Position numbers and translations under genes: made by a program. The notes below the pieces were generated by a model that did no database searches, was not told the DNA's origin, and was given only the letters and a program-made list of their open reading frames with translations. Below are positions 46,343 to 63,150 of a stretch of DNA of 64,000 nt, piece by piece (positions within the stretch are counted from its first letter, which is position 1; each line of letters begins with the position of its first letter). Source of the stretch: Labrys monachus (GTDB taxonomy: Bacteria; Pseudomonadota; Alphaproteobacteria; Rhizobiales; Labraceae). The stretch lies in the NCBI RefSeq assembly GCF_030814655.1, contig NZ_JAUSVK010000001.1, forward strand, positions 6,021,001 through 6,085,000. The letters run 5' to 3'.

Positions 46343-47545
<1,203 letters not shown>

Positions 47546-47546
47546 G

Positions 47547-48218
47547 TCAGAGCTCCGGAACGATCAGATCGGCGACGGGGCCGGAGACGTGCAAGTCGGC
47601 GCCGGTCACCGCCTGGAGCTCGTCGAACGACATGGAAGGCAGCTTCTCCCTGAGGACGAAGTGCCCGCCCTCGATGTCGATCACGGCGAGCGAGGTATAG
47701 ACCCGCGTCACGCAGCCGACGCCGGTCAAGGGCAGGCTGCAGCGCTTCAGAAGCTTCGGCTTGCCGTCCTTGGTGACATGATCGGTGATCACCGCGATCC
47801 GCTTTGCGCCGTGGACCAGATCCATCGCGCCGCCGACGGCCGGAACGCCCTTCGGACCGGTCGACCAATTGGCGAGATCGCCATTCTCGGCGACTTCATA
47901 GGCGCCGAGGATCGCGACATCGAGATGCCCGCCCCGCACCATGGCGAAGCTGTCGGCATGATGAAAAAAGGCGGCGCCCGGCTTCAACGTCACGGCGCGC
48001 TTGCCGGCATTGATCAGATCCCAGTCCTCCTCGCCCTTGGGAGGGGATGGGCCGAAATTCAGGATGCCGTTTTCGGTGTGGAAGATCGCCTCGCGGCCGG
48101 GCGGCTGGTACTGCGCCACCTTTTCCGGGAAGCCGATGCCGAGATTGACATAGGCGCCGTCGTGAATGTCCTGCGCGGCGCGCCAGGCGATCTGGTTGTT
48201 GGAGAGCTTGGCGGTCAT
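47547..48218 (-). CDS. pcaJ: 3-Oxoadipate CoA-transferase beta subunit PcaJ
   Basis: 223 residues from MTAKLSNNQ, one base after the pcaI stop, with GGGAG 9 bases upstream; an earlier ATG inside pcaI is rejected. The catalytic Glu is in HTENGILNFGP, with the family segment AYVNLGIGFPEKVA before it. It transfers CoA from succinyl-CoA to 3-oxoadipate with PcaI. Confidence 0.93.
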   Translation of the reverse strand: MTAKLSNNQIAWRAAQDIHDGAYVNLGIGFPEKVAQYQPPGREAIFHTENGILNFGPSPPKGEEDWDLINAGKRAVTLKPGAAFFHHADSFAMVRGGHLDVAILGAYEVAENGDLANWSTGPKGVPAVGGAMDLVHGAKRIAVITDHVTKDGKPKLLKRCSLPLTGVGCVTRVYTSLAVIDIEGGHFVLREKLPSMSFDELQAVTGADLHVSGPVADLIVPEL

Positions 48219-48219
48219 G

Positions 48220-48951
48220 TCAGGCAACTCCCGGATAGACGGCATTGGCGCGGTTCAGGTCTTCTTCCTGCGCGGGATGGGCGACTTCCACCACCTGCTG
48301 CACGAAGATGCCGGGGGTGACGACGATCTCCGGGTCGATGCCGCCCGCCGGCACGATCCGTCTCGCCTGCACGACGGTGACGGCGGCGGCCATGCACATC
48401 AGCGGATTGAAGTTTCGCGCCGCCGCCCGGTAGGTGAGATTGCCGTGGGTGTCGGCCGTCTCGGCCTTCACCAGCGCCACATCGGCCTTCAGCCAGCGTT
48501 CCCGGACATAGGGCCGCTCGTCGAACTGCTCGACCGGCTTTCCTATGGCGAGATCGGTGCCGTAGGAGGTCGGCGTGTAGAAGGCGGGGATGCCGGCGCC
48601 GCCCGCGCGGATGCGCTCGGCGAGCGTGCCCTGCGGCACCAGCTCCAGCTCGATTTTCCCGGCGAGATAGAGATCGGTGAACACGACCGGATCGGCGGAG
48701 CGCGGGAACGAGCAGATCAGCTTCCTGACCATCCCCGCCTCGATCAGCGCGGCGAGGCCGACATGGCCGTTGCCCGCATTGTTGTTGACGATCGTCAGGT
48801 CCTTCGGCCGGCCGGTCGCGAGGAAACGATCGATGAGGGCATGGATCAGCTCGATCGGCGCACCGGCGCCACCGAAGCCGCCGATCATCACGGTCATGCC
48901 GTCCTCGACCCCCGCCACGGCGGCGGCGAGGTTTGCGACTGTCTTGTCCAT
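48220..48951 (-). CDS. pcaI: 3-Oxoadipate CoA-transferase alpha subunit PcaI
   Basis: 243 residues. Class I CoA-transferase alpha subunit: GMTVMIGGFGGAGAPIELIH, LTIVNNNAGNGHVGLAALIE, and GAGIPAFYTPTSYGTDLA. GAGAGGAAG precedes the ATG. First gene of pcaIJF, divergent from the IclR-type pcaR with a 137-base intergenic region carrying a triple repeat. Confidence 0.93.
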   Translation of the reverse strand: MDKTVANLAAAVAGVEDGMTVMIGGFGGAGAPIELIHALIDRFLATGRPKDLTIVNNNAGNGHVGLAALIEAGMVRKLICSFPRSADPVVFTDLYLAGKIELELVPQGTLAERIRAGGAGIPAFYTPTSYGTDLAIGKPVEQFDERPYVRERWLKADVALVKAETADTHGNLTYRAAARNFNPLMCMAAAVTVVQARRIVPAGGIDPEIVVTPGIFVQQVVEVAHPAQEEDLNRANAVYPGVA

Positions 48952-49030: not shown

Positions 49031-49071
49031 ATTTGTGCGATATCATCCATTTGTGCGTATATCGCTCAAAT
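49031..49071. promoter_or_regulatory. PcaR-type triple-repeat operator
   Basis: Three copies of a 9-base element: ATTTGTGCG at 49031-49039 and 49049-49057 as direct repeats 18 bases apart, and CGCTCAAAT at 49063-49071 as an inverted copy with one mismatch. The last two frame TATAT as a palindrome. A palindrome plus a direct repeat is the architecture described for the IclR-type regulators PcaU and PobR of Acinetobacter. It sits 17 bases before pcaR and 80 before pcaI. Confidence 0.75.
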
Positions 49072-49088
49072 CACCGGTGGGACCCGAC

Positions 49089-49850
49089 ATGGCTGTGATC
49101 GAACGCGATTTCATGAGCGGTCTTGCCAAGGGCCTCTCCGTCATCGAGACCTTCAGCCTCGACCATTCGCGCCAGTCCATTTCCGAGGTCGCAGCCGCCT
49201 CCGGCCTCGATCGCGCGACGGCGCGGCGCTGCCTGCTGACGCTCGCCCATCTGGGCTATGCCGATTATGACGGGAAGTTCTTCACCCTGACGCCGCGCGT
49301 CCTGCGGCTGGGCACGGCATGCCTGGCGACCATGCCCCTGCCGCAACTCGTCCAGCCGCTGCTCGACCAATTGTCCGATGCGATCGGAGAAAGCTCCTCG
49401 GTCTCGATCCTCGACGGCACCGAGATCGTCTATGTCGCCCGGGCCGCGCAGCGCAGGGTGATGACGATCACGCTGATGCCCGGCTCCCGCCTTCCGGCCT
49501 ATTGCACCTCGATGGGCCGGGTATTGCTCGCCGCCCTGCCCGAGGCCGAAGCGCGCGAGCGGCTGGGCGCGGCCGCCCTGCCCCGCCGCACCGAATACAC
49601 GCTGACCGAGCCGGCAGCCGTCCTGGCCGCGCTGGATCGCGTCCGGTCCGACGGCTACGCCGTCATCGACCAGGAGGTCGAGATCGGCCTCCGCTCCATT
49701 GCGGTTCCGCTGATGACGGCACGGCGGGTCACGGTCGCCGCCGTCAATCTCGGCCTGCCGGCGCGGGGCGAGCCCGTCGGCGCGCTCGTCGAGCGCTATC
49801 TTCCCGCCCTTCAGGACGTCCAGAACCGGATGCGGGAGATCCTGCGCTGA
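49089..49850 (+). CDS. pcaR: PcaR, IclR-family regulator of pcaIJF
   Basis: 253 residues from MAVIERDFMSGLAKGLSVIE; an upstream in-frame ATG would run through the operator. IclR winged helix near residues 15-75 (QSISEVAAASGLDRATARRC) and an effector domain with SILDGTEIVYVARAAQRRVM and PAYCTSMGRVLLAALPE. Divergent from pcaIJF and 18 bases from the convergent hydroxyquinol dioxygenase gene. PcaR-type proteins respond to 3-oxoadipate. Confidence 0.9.
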   Translation: MAVIERDFMSGLAKGLSVIETFSLDHSRQSISEVAAASGLDRATARRCLLTLAHLGYADYDGKFFTLTPRVLRLGTACLATMPLPQLVQPLLDQLSDAIGESSSVSILDGTEIVYVARAAQRRVMTITLMPGSRLPAYCTSMGRVLLAALPEAEARERLGAAALPRRTEYTLTEPAAVLAALDRVRSDGYAVIDQEVEIGLRSIAVPLMTARRVTVAAVNLGLPARGEPVGALVERYLPALQDVQNRMREILR

Positions 49851-49868: not shown

Positions 49869-50759
49869 TCACTTCGGCTTGGCATGCGACAGCACGAAAT
49901 CGAACGCGACGTCGTAGAACGGCGCCTCGACATCGACCGCCGCAGCAGCCTCGGCGTCCTCGACCTTGCGGAACTCCGCGAGCAGGCTCTTCTTCACGCC
50001 GAAGACCGCATCCGAATTGATGTAGGGATCGTCGGGATCGAAGATGTGCGTGGTCAGAGCGTCGAAACCGTCGGCCGAAATGATGTAGTGCAGATGCGCC
50101 GGCCGATTGGGGTGGCGGCCGAGCGCGCCGAGCAGCTTGCCGACCGGGCCGTCATCGGGGATCGGGTAATATTTGGGCTTCACGCCGCGGAACCAATAGC
50201 GCCCGTCCTCGCCGGTCCGGAACACGCCGCGGAGGTTGAAATCGGGCTGGAGGCCCTTCTGCTGCACGTCGTAGAACCCCTCGTCATTCGCCTGCCAGAC
50301 ATCGATCTTGGCGCCGGCGATCGGATGGCCCTCCGTGTCGAGGATGCGGCCATGCACGAACATCGGCTCGCCCTTCCGGTCGAGGCAGATGTCGGCGCCC
50401 ATCGGCAATTCGGGCGCGTCGTCGACATGGAACGGCCCGAGCACCGTCGATTCCGAGGCGCCGGACGGCTTGCGATTATTGATGGCGTCCACCAGCATCG
50501 AGACGCCGAGGATGTCCGACAGCAGGATGTATTCCTGGCGCCATTCGTTGCACATCTGCCCCGTCTCGGTCAGGAACATGATCGCAGCGAACCATTCCTC
50601 CTGGGTCGGCTCGATCTCCTTGACCGCCTCGTGCAGCTTGCGGGTGATGACCTCCATCACCTGTTTGAGCCGTTCGTCCCCGGCGTTCTTGTTGCGCGCG
50701 ACAACGACCTCGGCCGAGTTTTCCTCGGTGAAGTAGCCATATTCGTGCTCGTTGCTCAT
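49869..50759 (-). CDS. Hydroxyquinol 1,2-dioxygenase (copy 1)
   Basis: 296 residues, intradiol dioxygenase of the hydroxyquinol/catechol type, with the N-terminal helical dimerisation domain. Fe(III) ligands: Tyr in NDEGFYDVQQ, Tyr in KPKYYPIPDDGP, and the His pair in RPAHLHYIIS. It cleaves 1,2,4-trihydroxybenzene to maleylacetate; catechol is a possible alternative substrate. Last gene of the eleven-gene operon and 9 bases after the TfdB-like gene. A second enzyme of this family is encoded at the other end of the operon. Confidence 0.88.
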   Translation of the reverse strand: MSNEHEYGYFTEENSAEVVVARNKNAGDERLKQVMEVITRKLHEAVKEIEPTQEEWFAAIMFLTETGQMCNEWRQEYILLSDILGVSMLVDAINNRKPSGASESTVLGPFHVDDAPELPMGADICLDRKGEPMFVHGRILDTEGHPIAGAKIDVWQANDEGFYDVQQKGLQPDFNLRGVFRTGEDGRYWFRGVKPKYYPIPDDGPVGKLLGALGRHPNRPAHLHYIISADGFDALTTHIFDPDDPYINSDAVFGVKKSLLAEFRKVEDAEAAAAVDVEAPFYDVAFDFVLSHAKPK

Positions 50760-50768
50760 GGCCTTGCC

Positions 50769-52523
50769 TCAGCGTGCGAGAATGGATTTGAGGACGCGGC
50801 GCAGTTCGGCCGCCGGCTCGGCGGAAAGCGCCTCCGAGCGCCAGGCGACGTGATGGTCGGGGCGGACCAGCAGGCAGCCGGCGTCGCGGATCTCGCTTGC
50901 CCGCGCCCAGTCGCCGCTATGGTCCTCGATCGGCCGGCGGGGGCCGATGAGGTGCGTGCGGATCGGCAGGCCGAGTTCCGCGCCGACAGCCTCGGCAGCC
51001 GCGACCCATGCCTCGCCGCCGATGCCGGTCAGCAGCGTGAACTCGCCATGGCCGCAGAGGTCGAGCGTCGAGATCTTCTTGCCCGACCGCTCGAAGACCC
51101 AAACATGCGGCAGCCTCGCGCCCGGCCAGGTCGTGGGGGCGTAATGCAGCTCGCTGTCCCTTTCGAAGGCCGGCTCCGCCTGTCCGTCGGTCACGACGGC
51201 GTCCGACTTGTAGCGCTGGTTCATCTCGACGCCATGGGCGTCGAACTCGTATTTCTTGAAGGCGATCGCCTTTCGGAGCGCCTCGCGCTGCGCTTCGGCG
51301 GCCGGGGTCGCGTCGCAGCGCGCCTCCATGTTGCGCTGGATCTTCTCGTGGTCGACGCCGCCATCCATGCCGAGCGCTTCGAAGATCGGACCGAATTCGC
51401 CGATCGACTGGTTGGCGCGCGTCACGATCTGGCGCGCGATCGGCGCACGCTCGGTCGAGTAGCTGTCGAGCAGTCCGAGCCCGGCTTGCCCCTTGACGAC
51501 CTTGGCGAGCTTCCAGGCGAGGTTGAACCCATCCTGGATCGATGTGTTCGAGCCGAGACCATTGGAGGGCGGATGCCGGTGCGCGGCGTCGCCCATGATG
51601 AAGACCCGGCCCTTCGACATCTCTGTCGCGAAGCAGTTGTTCACCGTCCAGGTGTTGGCGCCGAGCAGCTCGATCTCGAGTTCGGGATCGCCGACCAGCT
51701 GGCGTGCGACCTCGGTGGCGAGTTCCGGCGTCACCACGGGCGGCGGCTGGTTGATGTCGTAGCCCCAGACGATCAGCCATTCGTTCCAGGGCCGCACCAT
51801 GCGGACGAGCCCCATGCCGATGCCGCCGACATCGGCGCCGGGCTGCATCACCCAGTAGAGAACGCTCGGGCGGTGGGCGACATATTTGGAGAGGTCGGCC
51901 CGGAACAGGATGTTCATCGATCCGCCCACGCCCATCCTGCCTTCGAAGGGCAGGCCGAGATGTTCGGCGACCAGCGAGTTGCCGCCATCGGCGCCGACCA
52001 GGAACGTCGACCGGACGGTGAACGCCTTGCCCGTCAGCCGGTCGCGGCAGGTGGTGGTGACGCCGTCCGCATCCTGGACATGGCTTACATATTCGGTGCT
52101 CATCCGCGCCTGCGTGCCGCGCGAGCAGGCCGTCTTGAACAGGATCGGCTCCATGAAGGTCTGCGGCAGATCGTTCATGAAGGTGGGCGAGGACAGCAGG
52201 TGCTCCGCCTTGGAGAGCGGGTGCGTGCCCCAGCTCTTCATCCGGCCGATCTCCTCGCCGGCCAGGCTCTCGCAGAACACGTTCTCGCCCATCAATTCCT
52301 GCGGGGAAGCGTGCATCGAAGCCTCGGCTTCGACATCCGTCCCGAGGTCGCGCAACACTTCCATGGTGCGCTGGTTGGTGATGTGGGCGCGCGGCGTATT
52401 CGACAGCCACCGATAGCGGTTGATCACCATATTGGCGACGCCGCAGCTCGACAGCAGCGCCGCCGTCGCCGAGCCAGCCGGGCCCGTTCCGACGATCAGC
52501 ACGTCGGTTTCCATATCGGCCAT
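50769..52523 (-). CDS. TfdB-like FAD-dependent phenol monooxygenase
   Basis: 584 residues from the ATG overlapping the LivM stop (TGATG) with GAGGGAGGA upstream. The frame stays open through the permease gene but that part is not coding in this frame. FAD site IVGTGPAGSATAALL, DG motif VGADGGNSLVA, and GDAAHRHPPSNGLGSNTS. Blocks such as TPRAHITNQRTMEVLRDLG and AHRPSVLYWVMQPG closely resemble 2,4-dichlorophenol 6-monooxygenase. Likely hydroxylates a phenol (resorcinol- or hydroquinone-like) towards hydroxyquinol. Chlorinated substrates are not implied. Confidence 0.87.
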   Translation of the reverse strand: MADMETDVLIVGTGPAGSATAALLSSCGVANMVINRYRWLSNTPRAHITNQRTMEVLRDLGTDVEAEASMHASPQELMGENVFCESLAGEEIGRMKSWGTHPLSKAEHLLSSPTFMNDLPQTFMEPILFKTACSRGTQARMSTEYVSHVQDADGVTTTCRDRLTGKAFTVRSTFLVGADGGNSLVAEHLGLPFEGRMGVGGSMNILFRADLSKYVAHRPSVLYWVMQPGADVGGIGMGLVRMVRPWNEWLIVWGYDINQPPPVVTPELATEVARQLVGDPELEIELLGANTWTVNNCFATEMSKGRVFIMGDAAHRHPPSNGLGSNTSIQDGFNLAWKLAKVVKGQAGLGLLDSYSTERAPIARQIVTRANQSIGEFGPIFEALGMDGGVDHEKIQRNMEARCDATPAAEAQREALRKAIAFKKYEFDAHGVEMNQRYKSDAVVTDGQAEPAFERDSELHYAPTTWPGARLPHVWVFERSGKKISTLDLCGHGEFTLLTGIGGEAWVAAAEAVGAELGLPIRTHLIGPRRPIEDHSGDWARASEIRDAGCLLVRPDHHVAWRSEALSAEPAAELRRVLKSILAR

Positions 52524-53572
52524 CAGAGTCCTCCCTCGATCTTCGGACCGGTCAGCCTGCGGCGGACCGGGAACAGATGCAGCCCGCTGCGGGACGAGAT
52601 CAGCCCCCACAGTCCCTTGGGCGCGAACAGCATGACGGCGATGGCGAGCACGCCGAGCGTCATCAGGTACCAACTGCCGTAATCGGCCAGCGCCGAGCGC
52701 AGCGCGAAGAAGACGAGCACGCCGAGGATGGGACCTTCGATGGTGCCGATGCCGCCGATGACGACGATGAAGATGACGTAGGCCGTCCAGTCGGTGACGG
52801 CGAAGGCGGCATCCGGCGAGATGCGCGCCGTCTGCATAAAGATCAGCGCGCCGCTCAGGCCGGTGGCGGCCGCCGCTATCAGGAACACCGCCCATTTGAG
52901 CCGCCCGGCATCGACCCCGACGGAGCGCGCCGCATCGATGTTGTCGCGCACCGCCGCCAGCGCCAGGCCGAGCCGGCTGCGCAGCAGCCCGTAAATGCCG
53001 CCCGTGACGACAACGACGAGGATCAGCGCCAGCCAATAGGCGAGAATGTCGCGCGCGGCCGCATCGCGGACCCCGAACAGCGCGCGGATGGCGTCCGTTC
53101 CCAGGATATGGCTCGTCGCCTCGCGCGGCAGCGAGGTGCCGGTACCGCCGCCGAGCGTCTTCCACTGCGCGATCGACAGACGCGTCACCTCGGCGATCAC
53201 CCAGGTTCCGATGGCGAAATAGGCACCCTGCAGGCGGAAGGCGAAGTAAGCGGTCGGAATGGCCAGCAACAGCCCGGCAAGGCCGCCGAGCAGGATCGCC
53301 CAGACCGGGTTCCAGCCGAGCAGGATGACCCCGGCGAACATCGCATAGGCACCGATGCCGACAAAGGCCTGCTGGCCGACCGAGACGAGGCCGCCATAAC
53401 CGGCGAGCAGGTTCCACAGCTGCGCCAGGGTCAGCATGGTCAGGATGAAGAACAGATCCTGGATGACGCCGCGCGGCGCCACGGCCGGCAAAGCGAGAGC
53501 GGCCAGGACCAGGACGAGCATGGCGATCGCTGTGGCGGTGCCGGCGCGGGTGCGGGTGGTGAGCTTGTACAT
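52523..53572 (-). CDS. ABC importer permease, LivM type, importer 2
   Basis: 349 residues, about ten membrane helices. LivM marks: WNLLAGYGGLVSVGQQAFVG, AYFAIGTWVIAEVTRLSIAQ and the coupling loop SRLGLALAAVRDNIDAARSV. The stop overlaps the monooxygenase start. It is 7 bases after the LivH-type gene. Forms the channel of the second aromatic-type importer. Confidence 0.9.
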   Translation of the reverse strand: MYKLTTRTRAGTATAIAMLVLVLAALALPAVAPRGVIQDLFFILTMLTLAQLWNLLAGYGGLVSVGQQAFVGIGAYAMFAGVILLGWNPVWAILLGGLAGLLLAIPTAYFAFRLQGAYFAIGTWVIAEVTRLSIAQWKTLGGGTGTSLPREATSHILGTDAIRALFGVRDAAARDILAYWLALILVVVVTGGIYGLLRSRLGLALAAVRDNIDAARSVGVDAGRLKWAVFLIAAAATGLSGALIFMQTARISPDAAFAVTDWTAYVIFIVVIGGIGTIEGPILGVLVFFALRSALADYGSWYLMTLGVLAIAVMLFAPKGLWGLISSRSGLHLFPVRRRLTGPKIEGGL

Positions 53573-53579
53573 GCCGCCC

Positions 53580-54443
53580 TCAATCCACCGCGCGCGGGAA
53601 CAGGCCCCGCGGTTTCAGAAGCATCACCACCAGGAAGGCGACGTGGCCGGCGAGGATCTGCCATTCGGGATTCACCGCGGCGCCGAAGGTCTGCGCCACG
53701 CCGATGATGATCCCGCCGGCGAGCGTCCCCCACAGGCTGCCGAGGCCGCCGATGATCACCGCCTCGAAGGCATAGATCAGCCGCGCCGGCCCGATCGACG
53801 GATCGAAATTCGCGCGCATGCCGAGATAGAGCGCCGCGATCGTCACCACGACCATCGCGATCCCCGTGGCGATGGCGAAGATCCGCTTCGGCTCGATCCC
53901 CATCAAGCCTGCCGTCACGGGGTCGTCGGAGGTGGCGCGGAGCGCCCGGCCGAGTGCGGTGTGATAGAAGAGCCCGTTCAGCGCGAGGATCGCGGCAACC
54001 GCCGAAGCGAAGGTCAGGAGCGGCATGACGCCCACCGTGACGAGGCCGAAATCGAGCGAAGCCCCTTCCAGCGCGCCGGCCGGGATGCGGCGGCTATCGG
54101 CGGAGAACGCCTCCAGCAGTCCGTTCTGCAGGGCGACCGACAGGCCGAAGGTGACGAGGAGCGGCGGCAGGATATCCTTGCCGAGCACCCGGTTCAGCAC
54201 GATCGTCTGCAAAAGCCAGCCGAGGCAAAACATCACCGGCATGGCGATCAGCACCGCGATCCAGGGCGACAGGCCGAGCAGCGTGACGCCCATCAGCACC
54301 AGATAGGCGGCGAACACGATCAGGTCGCCATGGGCGAGGTTGACCAGCCGCATGATGCCGAAGACGAGGCTGAGACCCGCCGCGAACAGCGCATAGAGAC
54401 CGCCGAGCAGAATGCCCTGTACCAGGGTATCGATCCAGATCAT
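53580..54443 (-). CDS. ABC importer permease, LivH type, importer 2
   Basis: 287 residues from MIWIDTLVQGILLGGLYALF, overlapping the LivF stop as ATGA; the longer open frame upstream is antisense-quality sequence inside livF. About eight helices; coupling segment TALGRALRATSDDPVTAGLM. Pairs with the LivM permease. Confidence 0.9.
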   Translation of the reverse strand: MIWIDTLVQGILLGGLYALFAAGLSLVFGIMRLVNLAHGDLIVFAAYLVLMGVTLLGLSPWIAVLIAMPVMFCLGWLLQTIVLNRVLGKDILPPLLVTFGLSVALQNGLLEAFSADSRRIPAGALEGASLDFGLVTVGVMPLLTFASAVAAILALNGLFYHTALGRALRATSDDPVTAGLMGIEPKRIFAIATGIAMVVVTIAALYLGMRANFDPSIGPARLIYAFEAVIIGGLGSLWGTLAGGIIIGVAQTFGAAVNPEWQILAGHVAFLVVMLLKPRGLFPRAVD

Positions 54444-55144
54444 GCCGCCTCCCCGAAATAGGCGGCATGGATCTGCTCGCGTGTGACCTCGGCCGCACCG
54501 GCGACCAGCGTGACGCGGCCCTCCATCATGCAGTAGACGCGGTCGGCGACGGCGAGCGCCTTGCCGATATCCTGTTCGACCACGACGATCGCGGCTCCGG
54601 CGGCGCGGACCTTCGGCAAGGCCGCATAGATGTCGCGGATCACCACCGGCGCCAGGCCGAGGCTGATCTCGTCGCAGAGCAGCAGTTCGGGATTCGACAT
54701 CAGCGCCCGGCCGATCGCCACCATCTGCTGCTGGCCGCCGGAAAGCGCCGTGCCCGGGTTCTTGCGCCGCTCGCGCAGGATCGGAAACAGGTCGTAGACG
54801 GCGCCGAGATCCCACGGACCCGGGACCTTGCGCATCTGGCCGCCGATCAGAAGGTTTTCCTCCACGGTGAGCGAGGCAAACAGCCTGCGGCCCTCGGGTA
54901 CCATGGCGATGCCGCGCTTCATCACCTCGGCCGAGGAGCGCGCGCCGATCGCCTCGCCCCGGTGCAGCACCATGCCGGGCTCGTTGCGCAGAACGCCGGT
55001 GATCGAGCGCATCAGGGTGGATTTTCCGGCACCGTTGGCACCGATGATTGCAATGCATTCGCCTGCGGCGATGCCGACATCGACGCCGAACAAAGCGCGG
55101 AACTGGCCGTAACTGGCGGTGAGATTGCGGGTTTCGAGCAGCAT
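54440..55144 (-). CDS. ABC importer ATPase, LivF type, importer 2
   Basis: 234 residues starting at the ATG overlapping the LivG stop (TGATG). Walker A GANGAGKSTL near 36, canonical signature LSGGQQQM, Walker B LLLCDEISLG and VVVEQDIGKAL. Works with the LivG ATPase. Confidence 0.9.
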   Translation of the reverse strand: MLLETRNLTASYGQFRALFGVDVGIAAGECIAIIGANGAGKSTLMRSITGVLRNEPGMVLHRGEAIGARSSAEVMKRGIAMVPEGRRLFASLTVEENLLIGGQMRKVPGPWDLGAVYDLFPILRERRKNPGTALSGGQQQMVAIGRALMSNPELLLCDEISLGLAPVVIRDIYAALPKVRAAGAAIVVVEQDIGKALAVADRVYCMMEGRVTLVAGAAEVTREQIHAAYFGEAA

Positions 55145-55869
55145 CAGACCTCGAGCCCCAGATAGATTTCGCGGACATCCTTCGAGGCCATGATCGCGGC
55201 CGGCGCGCCGATGCCGATCACGCGCCCGAAGTTCAGCACCAGCAGCCGCTCGACCACGGAATTCAGCGCGTGCAGCACATGCTCGATCCAGATGATCGTC
55301 GTGCCCCGCGCATGGATCGCCCGGATCGTCGCGACCAGCGCCTTGCATTCGCCCTCGGTCAGCCCGCCGGCGATTTCATCGAGCAGCAGAAGCTCCGGCC
55401 CGGTCGCCATCGCGCGGGCGAGTTCCAGCCGTTTGCGGTCGAGCAGGCTGAGCGATCCGGCCACGAGATTGGCTTTCTTCAACAATTCGGTTTCCTCGAG
55501 GATGCGCGCGCAGTCGTCGACCATGGCGGCCTCGCGCCCCCCGCGGCCGAACGCGGCGGCGGTGAGCAGGTTCTCGAACACGGTCAGCCCCTCGAAGGGC
55601 TGCGGGATCTGGAACGAGCGTCCGACGCCCATGCGCACCCGTTCCATCGCGGGGGCGCGCGTCACGTCGCGATCGAGGAATTCGATGCGCCCCGCATTGG
55701 CCAGCACATTGCCGGTGATCAGGTTGAACAGCGTCGACTTGCCGGCCCCGTTCGGCCCGATGATGCCGAGCGCCTCGCCGCGCGGGACCGCGAAGGTCAC
55801 GCCATCGGCGACCTTCAAGGCGCCGAAGGATTTCGAGACGTTTTCGAGCTTCAGGATCATCGTTGCCAT
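55144..55869 (-). CDS. ABC importer ATPase, LivG type, importer 2
   Basis: 241 residues; a second ATG at 55860 could be the true start (GAGA 9 bases upstream). Walker A GPNGAGKSTL near 39, Walker B LLLLDEIAGG, switch WIEHVLH. As in importer 1, the LSGGQ signature is replaced by LSLLDRKRLELARA. Follows the binding-protein gene across a hairpin. Confidence 0.88.
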   Translation of the reverse strand: MATMILKLENVSKSFGALKVADGVTFAVPRGEALGIIGPNGAGKSTLFNLITGNVLANAGRIEFLDRDVTRAPAMERVRMGVGRSFQIPQPFEGLTVFENLLTAAAFGRGGREAAMVDDCARILEETELLKKANLVAGSLSLLDRKRLELARAMATGPELLLLDEIAGGLTEGECKALVATIRAIHARGTTIIWIEHVLHALNSVVERLLVLNFGRVIGIGAPAAIMASKDVREIYLGLEV

Positions 55870-55884
55870 TCTCGGGACGGGTAG

Positions 55885-55911
55885 CGGGGGCGGCGGCGAA
55901 CACCGCCCCCG
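55885..55911 (-). other. Hairpin between importer 2 binding-protein and ATPase genes
   Basis: CGGGGGCGG (55885-55893) pairs with CCGCCCCCG (55903-55911) around a 9-base loop, 7 bases after the binding-protein stop. No T-run. Same position as the hairpin in importer 1, suggesting raised expression of the binding protein relative to the genes after it. Confidence 0.6.
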
Positions 55912-55918
55912 AGGAGCC

Positions 55919-57193
55919 TCAGACCAGGGCTTCCATCTTGCCGGCGGTCGGGATTTGCGACGCGGCGGCGTTTTCGACGATCACCAGATCGAAGCCGCCG
56001 CCCGTCTTCTTCCGCCACTGGCCGCCGACCAGCGGCGTCTTGCAGACGTTCTTCGCCGCGAAGGGCGGCACGCCCGCCCCGTTCCACGCCACCTTGCCGA
56101 CGACCGTCGCCATGTCGGTGGCGGCAATGGCCGCGGCGATCGCGTCCGCGCTGCTCGGGTCGGAAACGCGCGCCATGACATTCGCCGCCACTTCGAACAG
56201 CGAATGGGAGAACCCGATCGGCTGCGTCCAGGGACGCTTGGTCTTCGCCTCGAAATCGGCTGCGAGCTCGGCGGAGCTCTGGCCGGTCAGCGACGACTTG
56301 AACGGATGCGAGGAAGACCACCAGACCTCGGACGAGAGGTTGTGGCCCGCCTCGCCCAGCGTCTCGACCGATTGCGGGAACAGGATGGCTTTTGCGACCG
56401 TCACGGCCTTCGGCTTGAAGCCCTGCTGGCGGGCCTGGTTCCAGAAGGTGGTGAAGTCGGGCGGGATCACCACGCCGGTGACGATCTCGGCATTCGCCGC
56501 CTTGAACGCGTTCACCTGCGCGGTGAAATCGTCCGAGAGGTTCTGGTAGCGACCGGGATCGGTGAGGCTGAAGCCGGCCTTGTCGAAGCCGGGCCTGAGG
56601 CCGTTCTTCGGATCGCCCCAGGCATTGCCGTCGGCATCGTTGGGGAAGAGCCCGCCCACCTTGCCGTTGGTGTCGAGCTGCTTCCACATGCCGGTATAGA
56701 CGGCGATGATGTCCTCGAGGCCCCAGAAATAGTGGAAGGCGAAGTTGAACGGCTTCCAGCTGGCCGGATCGCCCGGATTGCCCTGCTGGCCGATGAACCA
56801 GGGCTGCCAGGGCGCCGTGGTCGAGATGACCGGAACGCCTTCCGCCTCGCAGGTGGTGGCGACCGGATTGGTGTTTTCCGGCGTCGAGCCGACGAGCATC
56901 AGATGGATCTCGTCGTCGACGATCAGGCTCTTCGCCACTTCGGCCGCCCGGTTCGGGTTGGACTGGCTGTCCTTGACGATGACATCGAAATTCTTGCCGG
57001 CCTCGGAGGCCAGGAACGCCTTGATGTTATAGGCGTCGCTCTCGGCGAAGCCCGCGAGCGGGCCGGTCTGCGGCGAGACATAGCCGAGCTTGATCCTGGC
57101 GCCCCGCGCGATGGCCGGAGCGGCAAGCCCCGAAGCGGCGATCGTGAAGCCGGTCGCCGCCGAGGCTTTCAGCAGAGTCCGTCTGGTAATCAT
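55919..57193 (-). CDS. ABC importer substrate-binding protein (LivK type), importer 2
   Basis: 424 residues with a good twin-arginine signal (TRRTLLKASAATGFTIAASG, cleavage near APAIARG ~30). The mature part is a periplasmic type-I binding fold (IKLGYVSPQTGPLAGFAESD; GGLFPNDADGNAWGDPKNGL). Related to the importer 1 protein. In the hydroxyquinol operon between maleylacetate reductase and the ATPases, so the ligand is probably a hydroxylated aromatic. Confidence 0.87.
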   Translation of the reverse strand: MITRRTLLKASAATGFTIAASGLAAPAIARGARIKLGYVSPQTGPLAGFAESDAYNIKAFLASEAGKNFDVIVKDSQSNPNRAAEVAKSLIVDDEIHLMLVGSTPENTNPVATTCEAEGVPVISTTAPWQPWFIGQQGNPGDPASWKPFNFAFHYFWGLEDIIAVYTGMWKQLDTNGKVGGLFPNDADGNAWGDPKNGLRPGFDKAGFSLTDPGRYQNLSDDFTAQVNAFKAANAEIVTGVVIPPDFTTFWNQARQQGFKPKAVTVAKAILFPQSVETLGEAGHNLSSEVWWSSSHPFKSSLTGQSSAELAADFEAKTKRPWTQPIGFSHSLFEVAANVMARVSDPSSADAIAAAIAATDMATVVGKVAWNGAGVPPFAAKNVCKTPLVGGQWRKKTGGGFDLVIVENAAASQIPTAGKMEALV

Positions 57194-57220
57194 GTTTTTC
57201 TCCTCCCTCTTGTTTTGTTC

Positions 57221-58285
57221 TCAGGCCCCCGGGCGACGTCCCTCCCACGCCGCCTGGAGGAGTTCCCGTAGCGATCCCGGGTCGATCGGCCTCGGATTCG
57301 CATAGGCATTCTTGACGGCGATCGCCGTTGCGCGATCGAGATCGGCCTCTTGGATGCCGATGGCCCGGAGGCTGAGCGGCGAGCCGACGCTGCGGGCGAA
57401 ATCCCAGATCCCGCCGCCGGCCGTGCCGCCGCCGAAGGCGTCGGCGATCGGCGCCAGCAGATCGGGCACCGCCTGCTCGTTGAAGGCGGTGGTGTAGGGC
57501 AGCAGGATGGCGTGCGTCTCGGCATGCGGCGTATCGAACGAGCCGCCGAAGACATGGGCGAGCTTGTGATGCAGCGCCATCTGGACGCTGCCGAGCGCCG
57601 CCGAGCAGCACCACGCCGCATAGAGCGCCTCGGCCCGCGCCGTCCGGTCATGCGGATCCGCGATCAAGGCCGGAATGCCCTTGTGAAAGGCGGCAAGAGC
57701 GTCCTTGCACATCAGCACGATCACCGGGTTGCGGTCCGGCGCGTAGAACGCCTCCATCGCATGGGCGATCGCGTTCATCGCCGAGGTGACCGTGAGCCCG
57801 ACCGGCAGGCTGAGCGTCAGGTCGACATCATAGATCACCGTCTCCGGGCGGATGTCCGGCGAGCGACGCGTCGTCTTCTCGCCCGCCGCCGTCTCGCCGA
57901 GAATATCGGTCATCTCCGAGCCGGCATAGGTCGTCGGGATCACCACCTGGTCCGCGCCCGTGCGGACGGCAATGGCCTTGCCGAGCCCCGTCGTCGAGCC
58001 GCCGCCGAGGCTGACGACCGCGGTCGCGCCGCTGCTTCGGAAGGCATCGACCGCCTTCTGCGTTACGTCGAGCGGCGTGTGCATCACCGCGCCGGCAAAA
58101 ATTCCGGCGGAGAGCTCGCCGAGCGTTGCCGCCAGCCTTTCCGCATCGGCCTGCTGATGCGGCGTCGAGAGCACCAGCACCTTGTCATGGCCGAGCCGCC
58201 GGACTTCGTCCCCGGCCCGGGCCGTCGTACCGGAGCCGAACACCACCCGTGTCGTCAGGCCCGGAAAGATGAAGCTCTGCATCAT
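57221..58285 (-). CDS. Maleylacetate reductase
   Basis: 354 residues, the usual size of this iron-alcohol-dehydrogenase-family enzyme. Nucleotide loop VVSLGGGSTTGLGKAIA near 92 and the metal-site-like regions AIAHAMEAFYAP, ALHHKLAHVFGGSFDTPHAE and THAILLPY. It reduces maleylacetate to 3-oxoadipate with NAD(P)H, linking ring cleavage of hydroxyquinol to PcaIJ/PcaF. GGAGGC precedes the ATG; the start overlaps the hydrolase stop. Confidence 0.93.
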   Translation of the reverse strand: MMQSFIFPGLTTRVVFGSGTTARAGDEVRRLGHDKVLVLSTPHQQADAERLAATLGELSAGIFAGAVMHTPLDVTQKAVDAFRSSGATAVVSLGGGSTTGLGKAIAVRTGADQVVIPTTYAGSEMTDILGETAAGEKTTRRSPDIRPETVIYDVDLTLSLPVGLTVTSAMNAIAHAMEAFYAPDRNPVIVLMCKDALAAFHKGIPALIADPHDRTARAEALYAAWCCSAALGSVQMALHHKLAHVFGGSFDTPHAETHAILLPYTTAFNEQAVPDLLAPIADAFGGGTAGGGIWDFARSVGSPLSLRAIGIQEADLDRATAIAVKNAYANPRPIDPGSLRELLQAAWEGRRPGA

Positions 58286-58941
58286 CGTGCTGCCTCCATG
58301 CGCGCAGGGCGGCCCGCCGCCAGGTCGGCCAGGATCGAATCCAGCATGGCGATCTCGGCGTCCGAGACCTCGTGGCCCCGGCCGGGGAACAGATCGGCCC
58401 GGAGCCGCGCGCCGTTCCTGCCGAGCGACTGCGCCGCATCGGCGAAGGCCGAAACCGGGATCCACGGATCGGCGTCGCCGCCGGTCAGATAGACCGGCAC
58501 GCCGGCGGGCGCGGCTTCCGGCCGGCCATCCGCGGCAACGCCGACCCGGCTGCCGGTAAAGGCCACCAGCGCCTCGGGCCGCGGCAGACCGGCGCAGAGA
58601 TATTCGATCGACAGGCAGGCCCCTTGCGAGAAGCCGGCCAGCACCAGCGGCAGGCCCGGCAGTTCGGACCGGACTGCGGCGAGCGCGGCGGACAGATGAT
58701 CGAGCGCATCGGAGAGCTGCGCGCGGGCGACCGCGGTCAGCGGGTCGATGGCGCGCGCCGCCCACCACGCACCGAGCGGGGCGCGCGGCAGGACGAAGGC
58801 CACCGCCGGCGCGCGGACCCGCACCAGCACATGGGACTGCATCTCTTCCGGCGATTGGCCGCGGCCGTGGACGAAGACGCAGATCGCCTTCGCCTCCGAA
58901 CCCCTCGACCCCAGCCGGAGCGGACCGCTGCCCGAATTCAT
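58282..58941 (-). CDS. Phospholipase/carboxylesterase-type alpha/beta hydrolase (MhqD-like)
   Basis: 219 residues. Serine nucleophile in LAGFSQGACLS (~residue 104), Asp in YLTGGDADPWIPVS and His in FPGRGHEVSDAE complete the triad; oxyanion region VFVHGRGQSPEEM. The size and motifs are those of the carboxylesterase group paired with VOC ring-cleaving dioxygenases (MhqD with MhqO in Bacillus). The gene overlaps the VOC gene (ATGA) and maleylacetate reductase. Substrate unknown. Confidence 0.85.
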   Translation of the reverse strand: MNSGSGPLRLGSRGSEAKAICVFVHGRGQSPEEMQSHVLVRVRAPAVAFVLPRAPLGAWWAARAIDPLTAVARAQLSDALDHLSAALAAVRSELPGLPLVLAGFSQGACLSIEYLCAGLPRPEALVAFTGSRVGVAADGRPEAAPAGVPVYLTGGDADPWIPVSAFADAAQSLGRNGARLRADLFPGRGHEVSDAEIAMLDSILADLAAGRPARMEAAR

Positions 58942-59897
58942 GCGAATTCCGCCTCCTCGAGGCCGGCGCGCAGTTCGTCCTCGCGATCCTTGAACCAGGG
59001 TGGGAACACCAGCGTCTTGCCGATCGCGCCGGGCGGCTCGTCCTTGGCCCAGCCTTCCGGCGTGGTCCAGGCAAGCTCGAACAGCGCGCCGCCCGGCGAG
59101 CGGACATAGCAGGACTTGAAGTAGTTGCGGTCCTTCTGCTCGGAAATGTCCGTGAAGCCCAGACCCTCGATATGGGCGCGCAGCTTGAGCTGGTTCTCTT
59201 CGTCGCCGGTGTTGAGGGCGAGATGGTGGATCGTGCCGCCGGCCAGCGTCCAGGTGCCTTGCGCGCTGTCGCGGTCGACGATCACCTCGACGCGCTGGTC
59301 GACGCCGCCCGCATCGGGAACGCGGAACACCAGGCCCTCATGGTTGTCGGCCTCCTTCGTGAGCGGCAGCGCGACGGTCAGGAAGTCGTCCATGGCGGTG
59401 CGGTCCATCACCGCGACGACGGCGCCGTAGATCCCCTTGATGCCGTGCTCCCTGCCGATACCCTGCGCCGCATTGGTGATCGGCTCGCGCGAATCGCTGT
59501 CGCTTTCGACCAGCTCATGCGCAATGCCGCATGGATGCAGGAACGCCGCGCGGTCGGCGCCAAAACGGGTGATCCGGGCGGCTTCGATGCCGCGCGCATT
59601 CAGCCGGTCGACCCAGAACTCGGCCGCGCCCTTGGGAATCGACTGCATGATGGTGCGCGACTGGTTCGTGCCCCGGCGGCCATAGACGGCCGGTTTGCGG
59701 AACGGAAACGTCGTGATGATCGTCGAGGCGTCGCCGCCGGGCGAGCCATAATAGAGGTGGTAGACGGGGATCACGCCGTCGAACAGGACGGTGCGCTTGA
59801 CCGAATGCAGGCCGAGCGCCTTGGTGTAGAAATCGAAGTCCTCCTGAGCGCTGTCGGTCGACATCGTCAGATGGTGGTAGCCGCTGATTCGGGCCAT
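58938..59897 (-). CDS. VOC-family ring-cleaving dioxygenase (MhqO-like)
   Basis: 319 residues, two glyoxalase/VOC modules: residues ~5-130 (GYHHLTMSTDSAQEDFDFYT) and ~150-290 (GIYGAVVAVMDRTAMDDFLT; TIHHLALNTGDEENQLKLRA; GGALFELAW). Likely Fe(II) ligands are His in YHHLT, His in IHHLAL and Glu in LFELAW. Resembles hydroquinone-type extradiol dioxygenases used in quinone/hydroquinone breakdown. GGGAGGAG precedes the start. Confidence 0.85.
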   Translation of the reverse strand: MARISGYHHLTMSTDSAQEDFDFYTKALGLHSVKRTVLFDGVIPVYHLYYGSPGGDASTIITTFPFRKPAVYGRRGTNQSRTIMQSIPKGAAEFWVDRLNARGIEAARITRFGADRAAFLHPCGIAHELVESDSDSREPITNAAQGIGREHGIKGIYGAVVAVMDRTAMDDFLTVALPLTKEADNHEGLVFRVPDAGGVDQRVEVIVDRDSAQGTWTLAGGTIHHLALNTGDEENQLKLRAHIEGLGFTDISEQKDRNYFKSCYVRSPGGALFELAWTTPEGWAKDEPPGAIGKTLVFPPWFKDREDELRAGLEEAEFA

Positions 59898-59900
59898 TGG

Positions 59901-60809
59901 TCATCTCCTCCCAGACGTTCCGGTCCGCTCTGCCGGCGAGGGGCAGAGCACGAGATCGAGATCGAGCGCATATTTCCGCTTTCCTCCCAGCGGCGGCAGC
60001 GCGCGAAACTCGGCCATGAGTTCGGGTTTGACCCCGAAAATCGCATCCCGGCCGATCGCCGCATCCGAGCGATCGAAGATGTGGGTGGTCAGCGTCTCGA
60101 AACCGTCCGCCGAAACGCGGAAATGGATATGGGCGGGGCGTTCAAGACCAAGGCCCAGTGCCGACATCAACCGGCCGACCGGACCGTCGGAAGGCAGCGT
60201 GTAGCCCTTCGGCTTCACCGTCACGAAGCCGAACCGCCCCTGCGGATCGGCACGGAAGCGTCCGCGCAGATTGAATTCGGGCTGTCGGTCCGGCTCCTGG
60301 TTCTCATAGAGCCCCTCGGAATTGGCCTGCCACACCTCGACCGTGGCGCCGCCGATCCCGGCCCCGTCGAGGCCGACGATCCGCCCTTCGACGTCCAGCG
60401 GCTCGCCCTTATGGTCGCGCGAGATATCGGCGCCGAGCGGCGTGTCCGGCACGTCGGACCGATAGAACGGACCCGCCAGCGTGTTCGGCGTCGCGCCGGC
60501 GGGACGCGGGCTGTTCAGGTCCTCGATCAGCGAGGAAACGCCGAGCACGTCGGCGAACAGCACCCATTCCTGCCGCCGCGCATCGGCGTAGTGGCCGACC
60601 TCGGTCAGGAAATCGATCGCGAGCCGGAACTCCTCGACGGAGGGGCGCAATTGCGCGACGAGCGCGTGCAGCCCGTCGACGCTCGCCCGCGCGGCGGCTG
60701 CCAGGCGCGACGGGCCTGCTGCCGTCAGGCGCCGGGAAAACTCCTCCGCCTGCGCCGAGATCGCCTCCGGGATCGGATCCCCCCGCGCACCGTCATGCTG
60801 GCCGTGCAT
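59901..60809 (-). CDS. Hydroxyquinol 1,2-dioxygenase (copy 2)
   Basis: 302 residues. Intradiol dioxygenase with Tyr in NSEGLYENQE, Tyr in KPKGYTLPSDGP and the His pair in RPAHIHFRVS; compared with copy 1 one aromatic at the second Tyr region differs (KGYTLP versus KYYPIP). The helical N-terminal domain is present. First gene of the operon, 92 bases from the divergent LysR gene. GGGAGGGAGG lies 10-20 bases before the ATG. Substrate probably hydroxyquinol or a related catechol. Confidence 0.87.
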   Translation of the reverse strand: MHGQHDGARGDPIPEAISAQAEEFSRRLTAAGPSRLAAAARASVDGLHALVAQLRPSVEEFRLAIDFLTEVGHYADARRQEWVLFADVLGVSSLIEDLNSPRPAGATPNTLAGPFYRSDVPDTPLGADISRDHKGEPLDVEGRIVGLDGAGIGGATVEVWQANSEGLYENQEPDRQPEFNLRGRFRADPQGRFGFVTVKPKGYTLPSDGPVGRLMSALGLGLERPAHIHFRVSADGFETLTTHIFDRSDAAIGRDAIFGVKPELMAEFRALPPLGGKRKYALDLDLVLCPSPAERTGTSGRR

Positions 60810-60864: not shown

Positions 60865-60903
60865 TTGATGAGTTGTGGGCGCGCTTGTATAGCATTTTGC
60901 TAT
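60865..60903 (+). promoter_or_regulatory. LysR gene promoter with overlapping LysR box
   Basis: TTGATG (60865-60870), 17-base spacer, TATAGC (60888-60893): a good sigma-70-type pair whose start point would fall on or next to the ATG at 60902, so the transcript may be leaderless. A perfect inverted repeat ATAGCATTTTGCTAT at 60889-60903 (T-N11-A, ATAG-N7-CTAT form) overlaps the -10 box and the start codon, fitting a LysR-type autoregulatory site. Confidence 0.65.
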
Positions 60904-61852
60904 GAAGCTGAACGAGCGCCACCTCATGCAGCTCGCCGCCGTGCTGGACTCCGGCGGCGTATCGGAGGGCGCCGCCATGCTGGGCCTGACCCAGCCGGCG
61001 GTCAGCCGATCGCTCGCCATGCTGGAGGCGCGCATCGGCGAGCCGCTTTTCCTGAAGGGCCGCCGGCCGCTGCAGGCAACCCCGCTCGGCGCCCAGCTGG
61101 CGGCGGAGGGCCGCACGATCATCACCGCCTCCCGCAAGGCGTCCGACGCCGTGCAGGGCTTCATGAAGGGCACCAAGGGCATCGTGCGCGTCGGAGGCGT
61201 GCCGTTCTTCATGGATGCGATGATCAGCCGGATGATCGGCGAGTTCCAGAACCTGGAGCCCGAAGTGACCATCCAGCAGAGCTATCTGAACCTGCCTGAA
61301 ATGGTCGCGGCGCTCGAAGGCAACCAGATCGACCTCGGCATCGTGCCGATCGGCGTGCTCGGCCTCGGGCCCGGCTTCGAATTCACCGAGATCCTGCCCG
61401 GCCGCAACATCGTGGCGTGCCGGCCCGACCATCCCCTGCTGCGGAACCGCCGTCTGGTCGGGCGCGACCTGACCCGCTTTCCCTGGGTGGCGCCGCTCCC
61501 CGGCTCGCCGCTGATGTCGGATCTCCAGATGATCCTGATGAGCATCGGCATGTCGGACCTGAACATCCGCTATTCGGGCAGCTCGCTGATGGGCGTCATC
61601 AACTATCTGGTCGAAACCGACGCGCTGGCCGTGCTCCCCTTCTCCGTCGTCTTCGCGCAGCGCAAGGAGAACCGCGTCACCGTGCTCCCCTATGAGATCC
61701 CGCAGCCGAACCGATCCCTGGGCATCCTACGCCGCGTCGGCGCCCCGCGCTCCCCGGCCGCGGAACGCTTCGCCGGCCACGTCACCACCGCCTTCGAGAA
61801 CCTGAAACACATCATCAAGCGCCACGAGAACGCCGTCGTCTGGGGACGATAG
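60902..61852 (+). CDS. LysR-type regulator of the hydroxyquinol operon
   Basis: 316 residues. Helix-turn-helix in residues 3-62 (LNERHLMQLAAVLDSGGVSE, GLTQPAVSRSLAMLE); effector domain ~95-300 (VRVGGVPFFMDAMISRMIGE). No ribosome site precedes the ATG, which lies inside a perfect LysR-type palindrome, so leaderless expression is likely. Divergent from the eleven-gene operon it probably controls, with the inducer expected to be a pathway intermediate. Confidence 0.88.
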   Translation: MKLNERHLMQLAAVLDSGGVSEGAAMLGLTQPAVSRSLAMLEARIGEPLFLKGRRPLQATPLGAQLAAEGRTIITASRKASDAVQGFMKGTKGIVRVGGVPFFMDAMISRMIGEFQNLEPEVTIQQSYLNLPEMVAALEGNQIDLGIVPIGVLGLGPGFEFTEILPGRNIVACRPDHPLLRNRRLVGRDLTRFPWVAPLPGSPLMSDLQMILMSIGMSDLNIRYSGSSLMGVINYLVETDALAVLPFSVVFAQRKENRVTVLPYEIPQPNRSLGILRRVGAPRSPAAERFAGHVTTAFENLKHIIKRHENAVVWGR

Positions 61853-62250: not shown

Positions 62251-63150
62251 ATGAAATCAGTCATTCTTGCGTATGCCCTGGCGGCGGTATTGACCGCACC
62301 GGCTTTCGCCGCCGACGTCAAGGTGGTCAATCCCGACGCCTACTTTCCCGAAGGACCGATCTGGCACGACGGCAAGCTCTTCTATGTCGAGTATGGCCGA
62401 AATACCGTCATGACCTGGGACGGCAACAAAAACGAGGTGTTCTGGCGCCAGGATGGCTGTGGCCCTTCGGCGGTGGTGCCGACCGCGTCTGGCGAGTTCC
62501 TGGTGACATGCTATGATTCCAACATGATCGGCCACATCTCGGCCGACGGCAAGACGCTGCCGCCCTACGACAAGGACAGCGACGGCAACCCCTTCATCGG
62601 GCCGAATGATTTCGCGCCGGACAGGAAAGGCGGCATCTATTTCACCGGTTCCGGCCATGAAGGACCGGCGATCGATGCTTCGGCGTATTATCTCACTGGG
62701 GATGGCAAGGTAACCAAGGTCGCGGACAATTTGCACAACGCCAACGGACTTGCAGTGTCCAACGACGGCAAGCTGCTCTACCTGATCGAGACGGAGGACA
62801 ACCGCCTGATCGAGTTCGATATCAAGCCGGACGGGACCCTGTCGAACCGCCGCGTTTTCCTGCGCCTCGACGACCTCTTCCCGAATGCGCCGCATATCTG
62901 GCCCGACGGCGTGAAGATCGATGCGAAGGGTGAACTCTATATCGGCCAAAGCCCGCGCTCGCTCGACGCGCCCGGAAAGATCATCGTGGTGGACGGGGAC
63001 GCCAAGCTGCTGCGCACGATAGCAGTCCCCTCGGTCTCGATGCCAAATCTCGCCTTCGGGCCGGAGGAGAAGGTGATTTACGTCATGGCGCTCGACCAAA
63101 TCGACAAAGCGCCATGGCACGGGAAAGTCTACGAGGTCCCCAACCCGTAG
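62251..63150 (+). CDS. Secreted SMP-30/gluconolactonase-like beta-propeller protein
   Basis: 299 residues with a Sec signal peptide (VILAYALAAVLTAPAFAA, cleavage after AFA ~residue 20). The mature part is a six-bladed propeller of the SMP-30/lactonase type: FPEGPIWHDGKLFYVEYGRN, IGPNDFAPDRKGGIYFTGSG (metal-binding Asn-Asp region), NGLAVSNDGKLLYLIETEDN and WPDGVKIDAKGELYIG. Glu in PEGP, Asn in the NGLA turn and Asp in PDGVK are the usual metal ligands. Likely a periplasmic lactonase; substrate unknown. GAAGAGGGA lies 6 bases before the ATG. Confidence 0.87.
   Translation: MKSVILAYALAAVLTAPAFAADVKVVNPDAYFPEGPIWHDGKLFYVEYGRNTVMTWDGNKNEVFWRQDGCGPSAVVPTASGEFLVTCYDSNMIGHISADGKTLPPYDKDSDGNPFIGPNDFAPDRKGGIYFTGSGHEGPAIDASAYYLTGDGKVTKVADNLHNANGLAVSNDGKLLYLIETEDNRLIEFDIKPDGTLSNRRVFLRLDDLFPNAPHIWPDGVKIDAKGELYIGQSPRSLDAPGKIIVVDGDAKLLRTIAVPSVSMPNLAFGPEEKVIYVMALDQIDKAPWHGKVYEVPNP

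Follow-up and report, generated by a model that had tools for sequence, protein, structure and literature searches.

Operons for hydroxyquinol catabolism, such as gra of Rhizobium sp. MTP-10005, the resorcinol genes of C. glutamicum and the corresponding operons of R. jostii and Agrobacterium, share a hydroxylase, a hydroxyquinol dioxygenase and a maleylacetate reductase (MAR); we know of no arm in them that is made up of a VOC-family dioxygenase and an esterase. Chlorohydroquinone is reportedly opened by LinE-like enzymes at the bond between C1 and C2, and MnpC, whose gene cluster includes amidase and MAR genes, has been proposed to cleave aminohydroquinone at C1-C2 to the amide 6-amino-4-hydroxy-6-oxohexa-2,4-dienoate (PMC5604080). 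In A. niger the methoxyhydroquinone dioxygenase gene mhdA adjoins the carboxylesterase gene omeA, a methyl-ester ring-opening product was detected, and an omeA mutant builds up a methyl ester (PMC8336404); ring opening by a methoxyhydroquinone dioxygenase reportedly needs no preceding demethylation (PMC12915361). Here we analyzed an eleven-gene operon of Labrys monachus that lies in a window of 64,000 nucleotides (positions 6,021,001 to 6,085,000 of contig NZ_JAUSVK010000001.1; the genome, 6.92 Mb, is a single contig). We tentatively suggest, at rather less than even confidence, that this operon serves the breakdown of an imported phenolic compound by forked ring cleavage, in which one arm passes from an alkoxy-hydroquinone through an ester and both arms lead to maleylacetate.

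All eleven genes are on the minus strand, from window position 60809 to 49869; five junctions overlap, and no gap exceeds 49 bp. Read 5' to 3', they are idoA (59901..60809), voc (58938..59897), est (58282..58941), mar (57221..58285), sbp (55919..57193), livG (55144..55869), livF (54440..55144), livH (53580..54443), livM (52523..53572), fmo (50769..52523) and idoB (49869..50759), and the junctions measure +3, -4, -4, +27, +49, -1, -4, +7, -1 and +9 bp, where minus denotes overlap. A gene for a LysR-type regulator, lysR (60902..61852, plus strand; PF00126 and PF03466), diverges from idoA.

The second gene, voc, is predicted from its sequence to encode a hydroquinone ring-cleaving dioxygenase of the LinE/PcpA/MnpC type. 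It scored 221 bits against PcpA (4huz) and 145 bits against MhqO. A maximum-likelihood tree of 55 rows contained one split, with support of 100/99, that placed VOC among 27 rows together with LinE, PcpA, MnpC and actinobacterial and alphaproteobacterial relatives, and MhqO among the other 28; in this tree the PcpA and MhqO rows are the matched stretches from alignment output only, and the program flagged long branches, among them MnpC, G066, MhqO and PcpA. The predicted structure (mean pLDDT 90.3) gave TM-scores of 0.89 to PcpA and 0.88 to MhqO, and of about 0.35 to catechol-type extradiol enzymes. Residues H9, H225 and E274 align with His11, His218 and Glu266 of 3OAJ, a His-His-Glu site whose residues are named as metal-site residues for that structure (PMC12673573). 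Because MhqO has both this metal site and the PcpA fold, the two features cannot separate the LinE/PcpA type from MhqO. At E<=0.001 the sole Pfam match of voc was PF00903 (Glyoxalase), and membership in the homogentisate dioxygenase family, as for MhdA, was thereby ruled out.

A sequence-only reading of this DNA had described voc and est as an MhqO/MhqD-like couple. The VOC gene does overlap an esterase gene (by 4 bp; Glyoxalase/VOC and Abhydrolase_2), but the VOC protein falls outside the MhqO clade, nearer to LinE, PcpA and MnpC. A second VOC gene of the same genome, followed by an alpha/beta hydrolase gene, is located about 1.8 Mb from the operon, near 4.23 Mb (L038:8569-10199, about 4228569-4230199 of the genome). 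Because this second VOC falls in the MhqO clade, the MhqO/MhqD-like couple of this genome sits elsewhere. The tree, the second pair and the presence of a LysR regulator in place of the MarR-type MhqR together reject membership of voc-est in the MhqO/MhqD group. For est, BLASTP gave no significant match with the MhqD-like protein of this genome, which serves here as a stand-in for MhqD.

To place the operon among its relatives, a contig scan recovered 243 VOC relatives, of which the best 80 were kept and combined with L035, L036 and L037, three loci from genomes of the same order, to give 83 loci; because 80 of these are the best of 243, the counts lean to close relatives, and several loci are cut by contig ends. 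The record titles of the best 80 name alphaproteobacteria, such as Mesorhizobium, Kaistia, Devosia, Paracoccus and Rhizobium, apart from one that says only Proteobacteria. The complete order of eleven genes with the divergent lysR recurs in 26 of the 83 loci, so the arrangement is not due to chance. Mesorhizobium ciceri WSM1271 and Kaistia dalseonensis B6-8 are strains that carry the same operon. The unit had been delimited correctly in the sequence-only reading, although its combination of genes, there called unfamiliar, turned out by this gene-set search to be common in Alphaproteobacteria. A divergent lysR stands beside voc in 75 loci, and sbp is present in 77, idoA and mar in 58 each, fmo in 55 and idoB in 52. 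Many Rhizobium loci have voc-est with its own lysR, adjoining a mar-sbp-livGFHM-fmo-idoB operon, and in Paracoccus- and Tabrizicola-type loci idoA-voc-est-sbp is separate. At E<=1e-55 the VOC gene was found in 24 of 397 sampled genomes of the host's order and in one of five genomes of the host's genus, namely this one. It is rare among sampled Pseudomonadota (5 of 398, host genome included) and in the order of G155 (1 of 390 genomes, G155 itself). A literature search, mostly of papers available without subscription, returned nothing on this eleven-gene operon and nothing on bacterial VOC-type cleavage of methoxyhydroquinone.

In these loci voc nearly always comes with an esterase gene. The est product belongs to Abhydrolase_2 (PF02230). 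Of 88 aligned rows, 86 retain its Ser105, 85 its Asp158 and 85 its His190, and every other row has a gap at the position. The genes voc and est lie next to each other in 81 of the 83 loci, and an esterase match above 50 bits and over half of the query was present in 80 of the 83 alphaproteobacterial loci; the esterase of L037, not counted as adjacent in this tally, is placed beside the VOC gene by a Rhodococcus query. None of the 83 loci had an amidase match. Conversely, three loci of the MnpC lineage (L124, L137 and L139) have an amidase and an mnp-type MAR and no esterase match. Provided that the hydrolase suits the bond created when the ring opens, the esterase points to an alkoxy group on the ring.

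Related genes were also seen in more distant settings. In the lindane linE operon, a relative of est lies between linE and linD (L121:2841-3557 and L125:8779-9495), an interval that also holds another alpha/beta hydrolase and a YciI protein. On Rhodococcus plasmids (L138 and L123), esterase and VOC genes occur with genes for a cytochrome P450, a PDR/VanB-type reductase and MAR, and L138 adds a gene for formaldehyde dehydrogenase, an enzyme that O-demethylation would require. On plasmid pISP0 of Sphingomonas sp. MM-1 (L141:8986-9924), the VOC match is split over two coding sequences annotated as hypothetical, beside MAR and LysR genes.

The remaining proteins of the operon were assigned by their matches. 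IdoA (PF00775/PF04444; best solved match 8r2x, 210 bits) and IdoB (8r2x, 328 bits) share 50% identity over 249 residues, both have hydroxyquinol-type dioxygenases as their best solved matches, and both keep the residues aligned with the tyrosines and histidines that we take to be the iron ligands of 1tmx. The mar product matched 3w5s at 429 bits and 3hl0 at 416 bits, and the remaining FeADH matches in the genome were only 26-34% identical to it. The operon thus appears, by homology, to carry a hydroxyquinol-type intradiol dioxygenase together with a maleylacetate reductase, as hydroxyquinol pathway operons do. The fmo product is a group A flavin monooxygenase (FMO; PF01494) without a second match in the genome at E<=1e-20; proposed earlier to be TfdB-like, it is nearer to 2-hydroxybiphenyl 3-monooxygenase, HbpA (4cy6, 608 bits), than to 2,4-dichlorophenol 6-monooxygenase (6u0p, 458 bits). 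The importer, the two terminal intradiol dioxygenases and the MAR of that same proposal were borne out by homology: the periplasmic binding protein (sbp; PF13458) and one ATP-binding cassette (ABC) permease (livM; PF02653) fall in Pfam families of Liv-type importers, and the two ABC ATPases (livG and livF) and the permease LivH have weaker Liv/Urt matches, below curated cut-offs. An NCBIfam scan of ten of the proteins gave no match for voc and, among the matches listed, none above cut-off for the other nine.

We examined whether the VOC-esterase couple is linked to MAR and FMO beyond the operon. Matches to MAR, FMO and IdoB are lacking in 22 of the 83 loci, and the genomes of 19 of these were searched (all but those of the short contigs L097, L107 and L114). 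MAR was encoded elsewhere in all 19, with best matches at E<=3.3e-113, against base rates of 35 of 199 genomes in the host's order and 27 of 195 in the order of G409 (62 of 394 in total); the samples behind these rates include VOC-bearing genomes, and the thresholds differ, 1e-40 for the 19-genome search and 1e-80 for the base rates, which counts against the comparison. In 15 of the 19, MAR stands beside an FMO that is 79-82% identical to that of the operon, so the pathway of the operon seems to be divided between two units there. Outside the host's class, L164 has a VOC-esterase-MAR set, and Pseudarthrobacter pACHL02 has a VOC-esterase-MAR unit followed by a thiolase and a CoA transferase; neither stretch had an intradiol dioxygenase match. 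Two VOC genes of the MhqO clade (L165 and L166) have a maleylacetate reductase gene about 0.7-1 kb away and no esterase match, and possibly represent a second catabolic group of VOC dioxygenases. An Agrobacterium gene called mhqO also adjoins MAR but is only 15-17% identical to other mhqO genes (PMC12673573).

The palindrome ATAGCA-N3-TGCTAT (60889..60903), which overlaps the lysR start, is predicted from its conservation to be the LysR operator. It recurs with at most two mismatches and at the same offset in 70 of 75 loci, whether idoA or voc comes first, and in 0.3% of mononucleotide shuffles; the motif was picked from the same loci and the shuffles preserved base composition only, both of which weaken the comparison. 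Shared ancestry inflates this count and the MAR comparison alike.

Taken together, these observations would fit the following scheme. The ABC importer would bring in a phenolic compound, which the HbpA-like FMO would hydroxylate. IdoA and IdoB would open products in which two hydroxyls are adjacent (hydroxyquinol or one of its derivatives), and VOC would open a hydroquinone that bears an alkoxy substituent next to a hydroxyl, for which 2-methoxyhydroquinone is the likeliest candidate. If VOC breaks the bond that joins the C-OH carbon to the C-OR carbon, in the manner of LinE on chlorohydroquinone, the product would be an ester of maleylacetate, and the translationally coupled esterase would hydrolyse it before or after reduction by MAR. 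Maleylacetate from both arms would be reduced by MAR to 3-oxoadipate and passed to PcaIJ and PcaF; the pcaI-, pcaJ- and pcaF-like genes beside the operon (46343..48951, minus strand; names read from translations), homologs of which adjoin the operon in L036 and L060, are the likely onward route. The gene identities, kept active-site residues, layout, predicted operator, LinE/PcpA clade and link to MAR and, in most cases, FMO on which the scheme builds are read from sequence. Its substrates and products and the position of cleavage are predictions, and the alkoxy assignment is the least certain step. A wider proposal appears doubtful to us, namely that bacteria have an alkoxy- or methoxyhydroquinone pathway independent of the fungal one, in which ring cleavage by a LinE-type VOC enzyme next to the O-methyl substituent converts the ether to a methyl ester; here a simple esterase, in place of an O-demethylase, would demethylate a ring carbon. 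In favour of the substrate, 2-methoxyhydroquinone is accepted by the hydroquinone dioxygenase of Sphingomonas sp. TTNP3, with a turnover rate 59% of that for hydroquinone (PMC3222310).

A number of points weigh against the alkoxy arm. The VOCs of the three amidase loci are 78-82% identical and form one lineage, so the amidase swap counts as a single event, and the cleavage site of MnpC is itself a proposal from LinE similarity (PMC5604080). The esterase of the linE operon, whose substrate is chlorohydroquinone, is 29% identical to est, and the esterase alone therefore does not prove an alkoxy substrate. The pairing is also imperfect: L106 had no esterase match whatsoever, the short contigs L041 and L114 had partial matches only, the match in L163 lies 6.3 kb from the VOC gene, and L141 had none by query, with an annotated esterase 2.7 kb off. 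Hydrolase neighbours occur beside MhqO-clade genes too, both in our data and as described in PMC12673573. The TTNP3 enzyme cuts 2-methylhydroquinone beside the ring hydrogen and not the methyl group, and LinE cuts beside an electron-withdrawing chlorine (PMC3222310); because methoxy, like the methyl avoided by the TTNP3 enzyme, is electron-donating, VOC might cut on the other side. The activities of all the operon proteins are predicted from homology. HbpA is an ortho-hydroxylase; formation of a methoxyhydroquinone by FMO is hypothetical. The binding-protein model (pLDDT 85) does not single out one ligand of the importer, with aromatic-acid binders ranked first by Foldseek and a pyroglutamate binder by VIA-align. 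VanA had no match in the genome, a result that leaves room for other demethylases. Finally, the link to MAR is confounded by shared ancestry and transfer, and it is not exclusive to the LinE clade, because the MhqO-clade genes of L165 and L166 also have MAR nearby.

An alternative is the same forked operon without an alkoxy substrate. VOC may instead cut hydroxyquinol, hydroquinone or a chloro- or alkyl-hydroquinone, with the esterase clearing a side product (a lactone or acyl derivative) or acting as a C-C hydrolase on a beta-diketone, an explanation we consider plausible but distinctly uncertain. It agrees with the LinE/PcpA clade of VOC, with the related esterase in the linE operon and with the MAR link, and in vitro both hydroquinone and chlorohydroquinone are cleaved by the MnpC enzyme from strain CNP-8 (PMC5604080), yet it leaves unexplained both the constancy of the esterase beside VOC and the amidase in the MnpC lineage. 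It shares with the alkoxy-ester scheme the handling of hydroxyquinol- and hydroquinone-type rings, which had been suggested from the letters of the DNA and still appears to be the best reading of the operon.

The other possibility raised at that time, that the couple serves mainly to protect the cell from quinones, is made less likely by its association with importer proteins, MAR and FMO. In this case the VOC-esterase couple would remove quinones formed in hydroxyquinol catabolism, as proposed for the Mhq proteins of Bacillus and Staphylococcus. Hydroxyquinol does autoxidise to quinones. The mhqRED genes give S. aureus quinone resistance (PMC6798810). Such a role is nevertheless improbable given that VOC lies outside the MhqO clade, the regulator is LysR and not MarR, the genome has another, MhqO-clade pair, sbp directly follows est in 27 of 83 loci, and MAR and FMO are linked to the couple genome-wide. 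Meta-cleavage, in which VOC would open a catechol-type FMO product, for example a biaryl, and est would be a C-C hydrolase, might be suspected from the closeness of FMO to 2-hydroxybiphenyl 3-monooxygenase, and a Paenibacillus MhqO-MhqD pair has been proposed as an extradiol dioxygenase and C-C hydrolase for dehydrodivanillate (DDVA), although MhqO was inactive there (PMC12673573). The PcpA fold of VOC, so distant from the catechol-type extradiol enzymes, argues against it, and MAR would be superfluous in such a pathway, yet was present in every one of the 19 genomes tested; we regard meta-cleavage as very improbable.

The surroundings of the operon are also concerned with aromatic compounds. 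Because pcaQ-, pcaD-, pcaH/G-, pcaB- and pobA-like genes (names read from sequence; pcaH/G match PF00775) occupy 37423-44361, the window can be described as an aromatic-catabolism supercluster. A plus-strand cluster at 28767-37401 comprises a second Liv-type importer, two aldehyde-dehydrogenase-like genes and a short-chain dehydrogenase/reductase (SDR) that scores above the NCBIfam threshold for coniferyl-alcohol dehydrogenase, and looks like a system for uptake and oxidation of lignin-type alcohols or aldehydes. These genes and the absence of VanA are compatible with guaiacyl-type substrates and are no proof of them. An IclR-like gene (49035-49850; name read from translation) adjoins the operon, and after lysR the window encodes a SMP-30/gluconolactonase-like protein with a signal-like N-terminus (62251-63150, plus strand). 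In other loci, an SDR gene follows idoB in L048 (20102-20920) and a similar one follows sbp in L060 (14907-15752); this SDR similarity cluster covers 33 loci in varying positions. A regulator cluster occurs in six loci, with one member having XylR_N and V4R domains. On plasmid pLN1 of A. tumefaciens LN-1 (L122:12002-19342), a lysR/idoA-voc-est-mar unit with insertion sequence elements nearby is followed by genes for an alpha/beta hydrolase, an HsaA-like oxygenase (below cut-off) and a flavin reductase, and in L140 the neighbouring pair is annotated as an acyl-CoA dehydrogenase and a flavin reductase. None of these additional neighbours names a substrate.

The operon, which is found in soil bacteria and legume symbionts, appears to unite two ring-cleavage chemistries at one intermediate, maleylacetate. 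If the esterase arm acts on methoxyhydroquinones, a lignin-type O-methyl group would be removed without an O-demethylase and released as methanol, and such esterase-type demethylation would be relevant to engineering and to the flow of lignin carbon. The hydrolase beside a LinE-type dioxygenase, esterase or amidase, would then report the ring substituent (OR or NH2), a rule that would yield substrate predictions for many unassigned "VOC family" dioxygenases.

Among known systems, those of LinE, PcpA and MnpC are like the VOC protein in clade, fold and aligned metal-ligand positions, at only 35-39% identity; MAR adjoins mnpC and the linE operon has a related esterase, as here, but the Labrys operon has an importer, an HbpA-like FMO and two intradiol dioxygenases, and no dechlorinase or nitroreductase gene. 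MhqO/MhqE-MhqD couples also join a VOC dioxygenase to an alpha/beta hydrolase, and differ in clade, regulator and partners. In Pseudarthrobacter chlorophenolicus A6, plasmid pACHL02 carries the series FMO-VOC-phospholipase-YceI-MAR-thiolase-CoA transferase, and some 23-27 kb upstream two intradiol dioxygenases accompanied by two MARs and monooxygenases; its VOC is 44% and its esterase 31-32% identical to the operon proteins, but the genes form two separate groups, and no Liv-type importer is annotated in the stretches examined. The mhdA-omeA pair of A. niger likewise consists of adjacent dioxygenase and carboxylesterase genes, with a candidate maleylacetate reductase homolog, whereas MhdA resembles homogentisate dioxygenase and not VOC, and its esterase is thought to act after reduction (PMC8336404). 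The substrate here, unlike that of the fungal route, is predicted from gene pairing and the hydrolase swap. By analogy, with mhdA/omeA as a demonstrated precedent of unrelated descent, the VOC-esterase branch looks like a bacterial counterpart of the fungal methoxyhydroquinone route.

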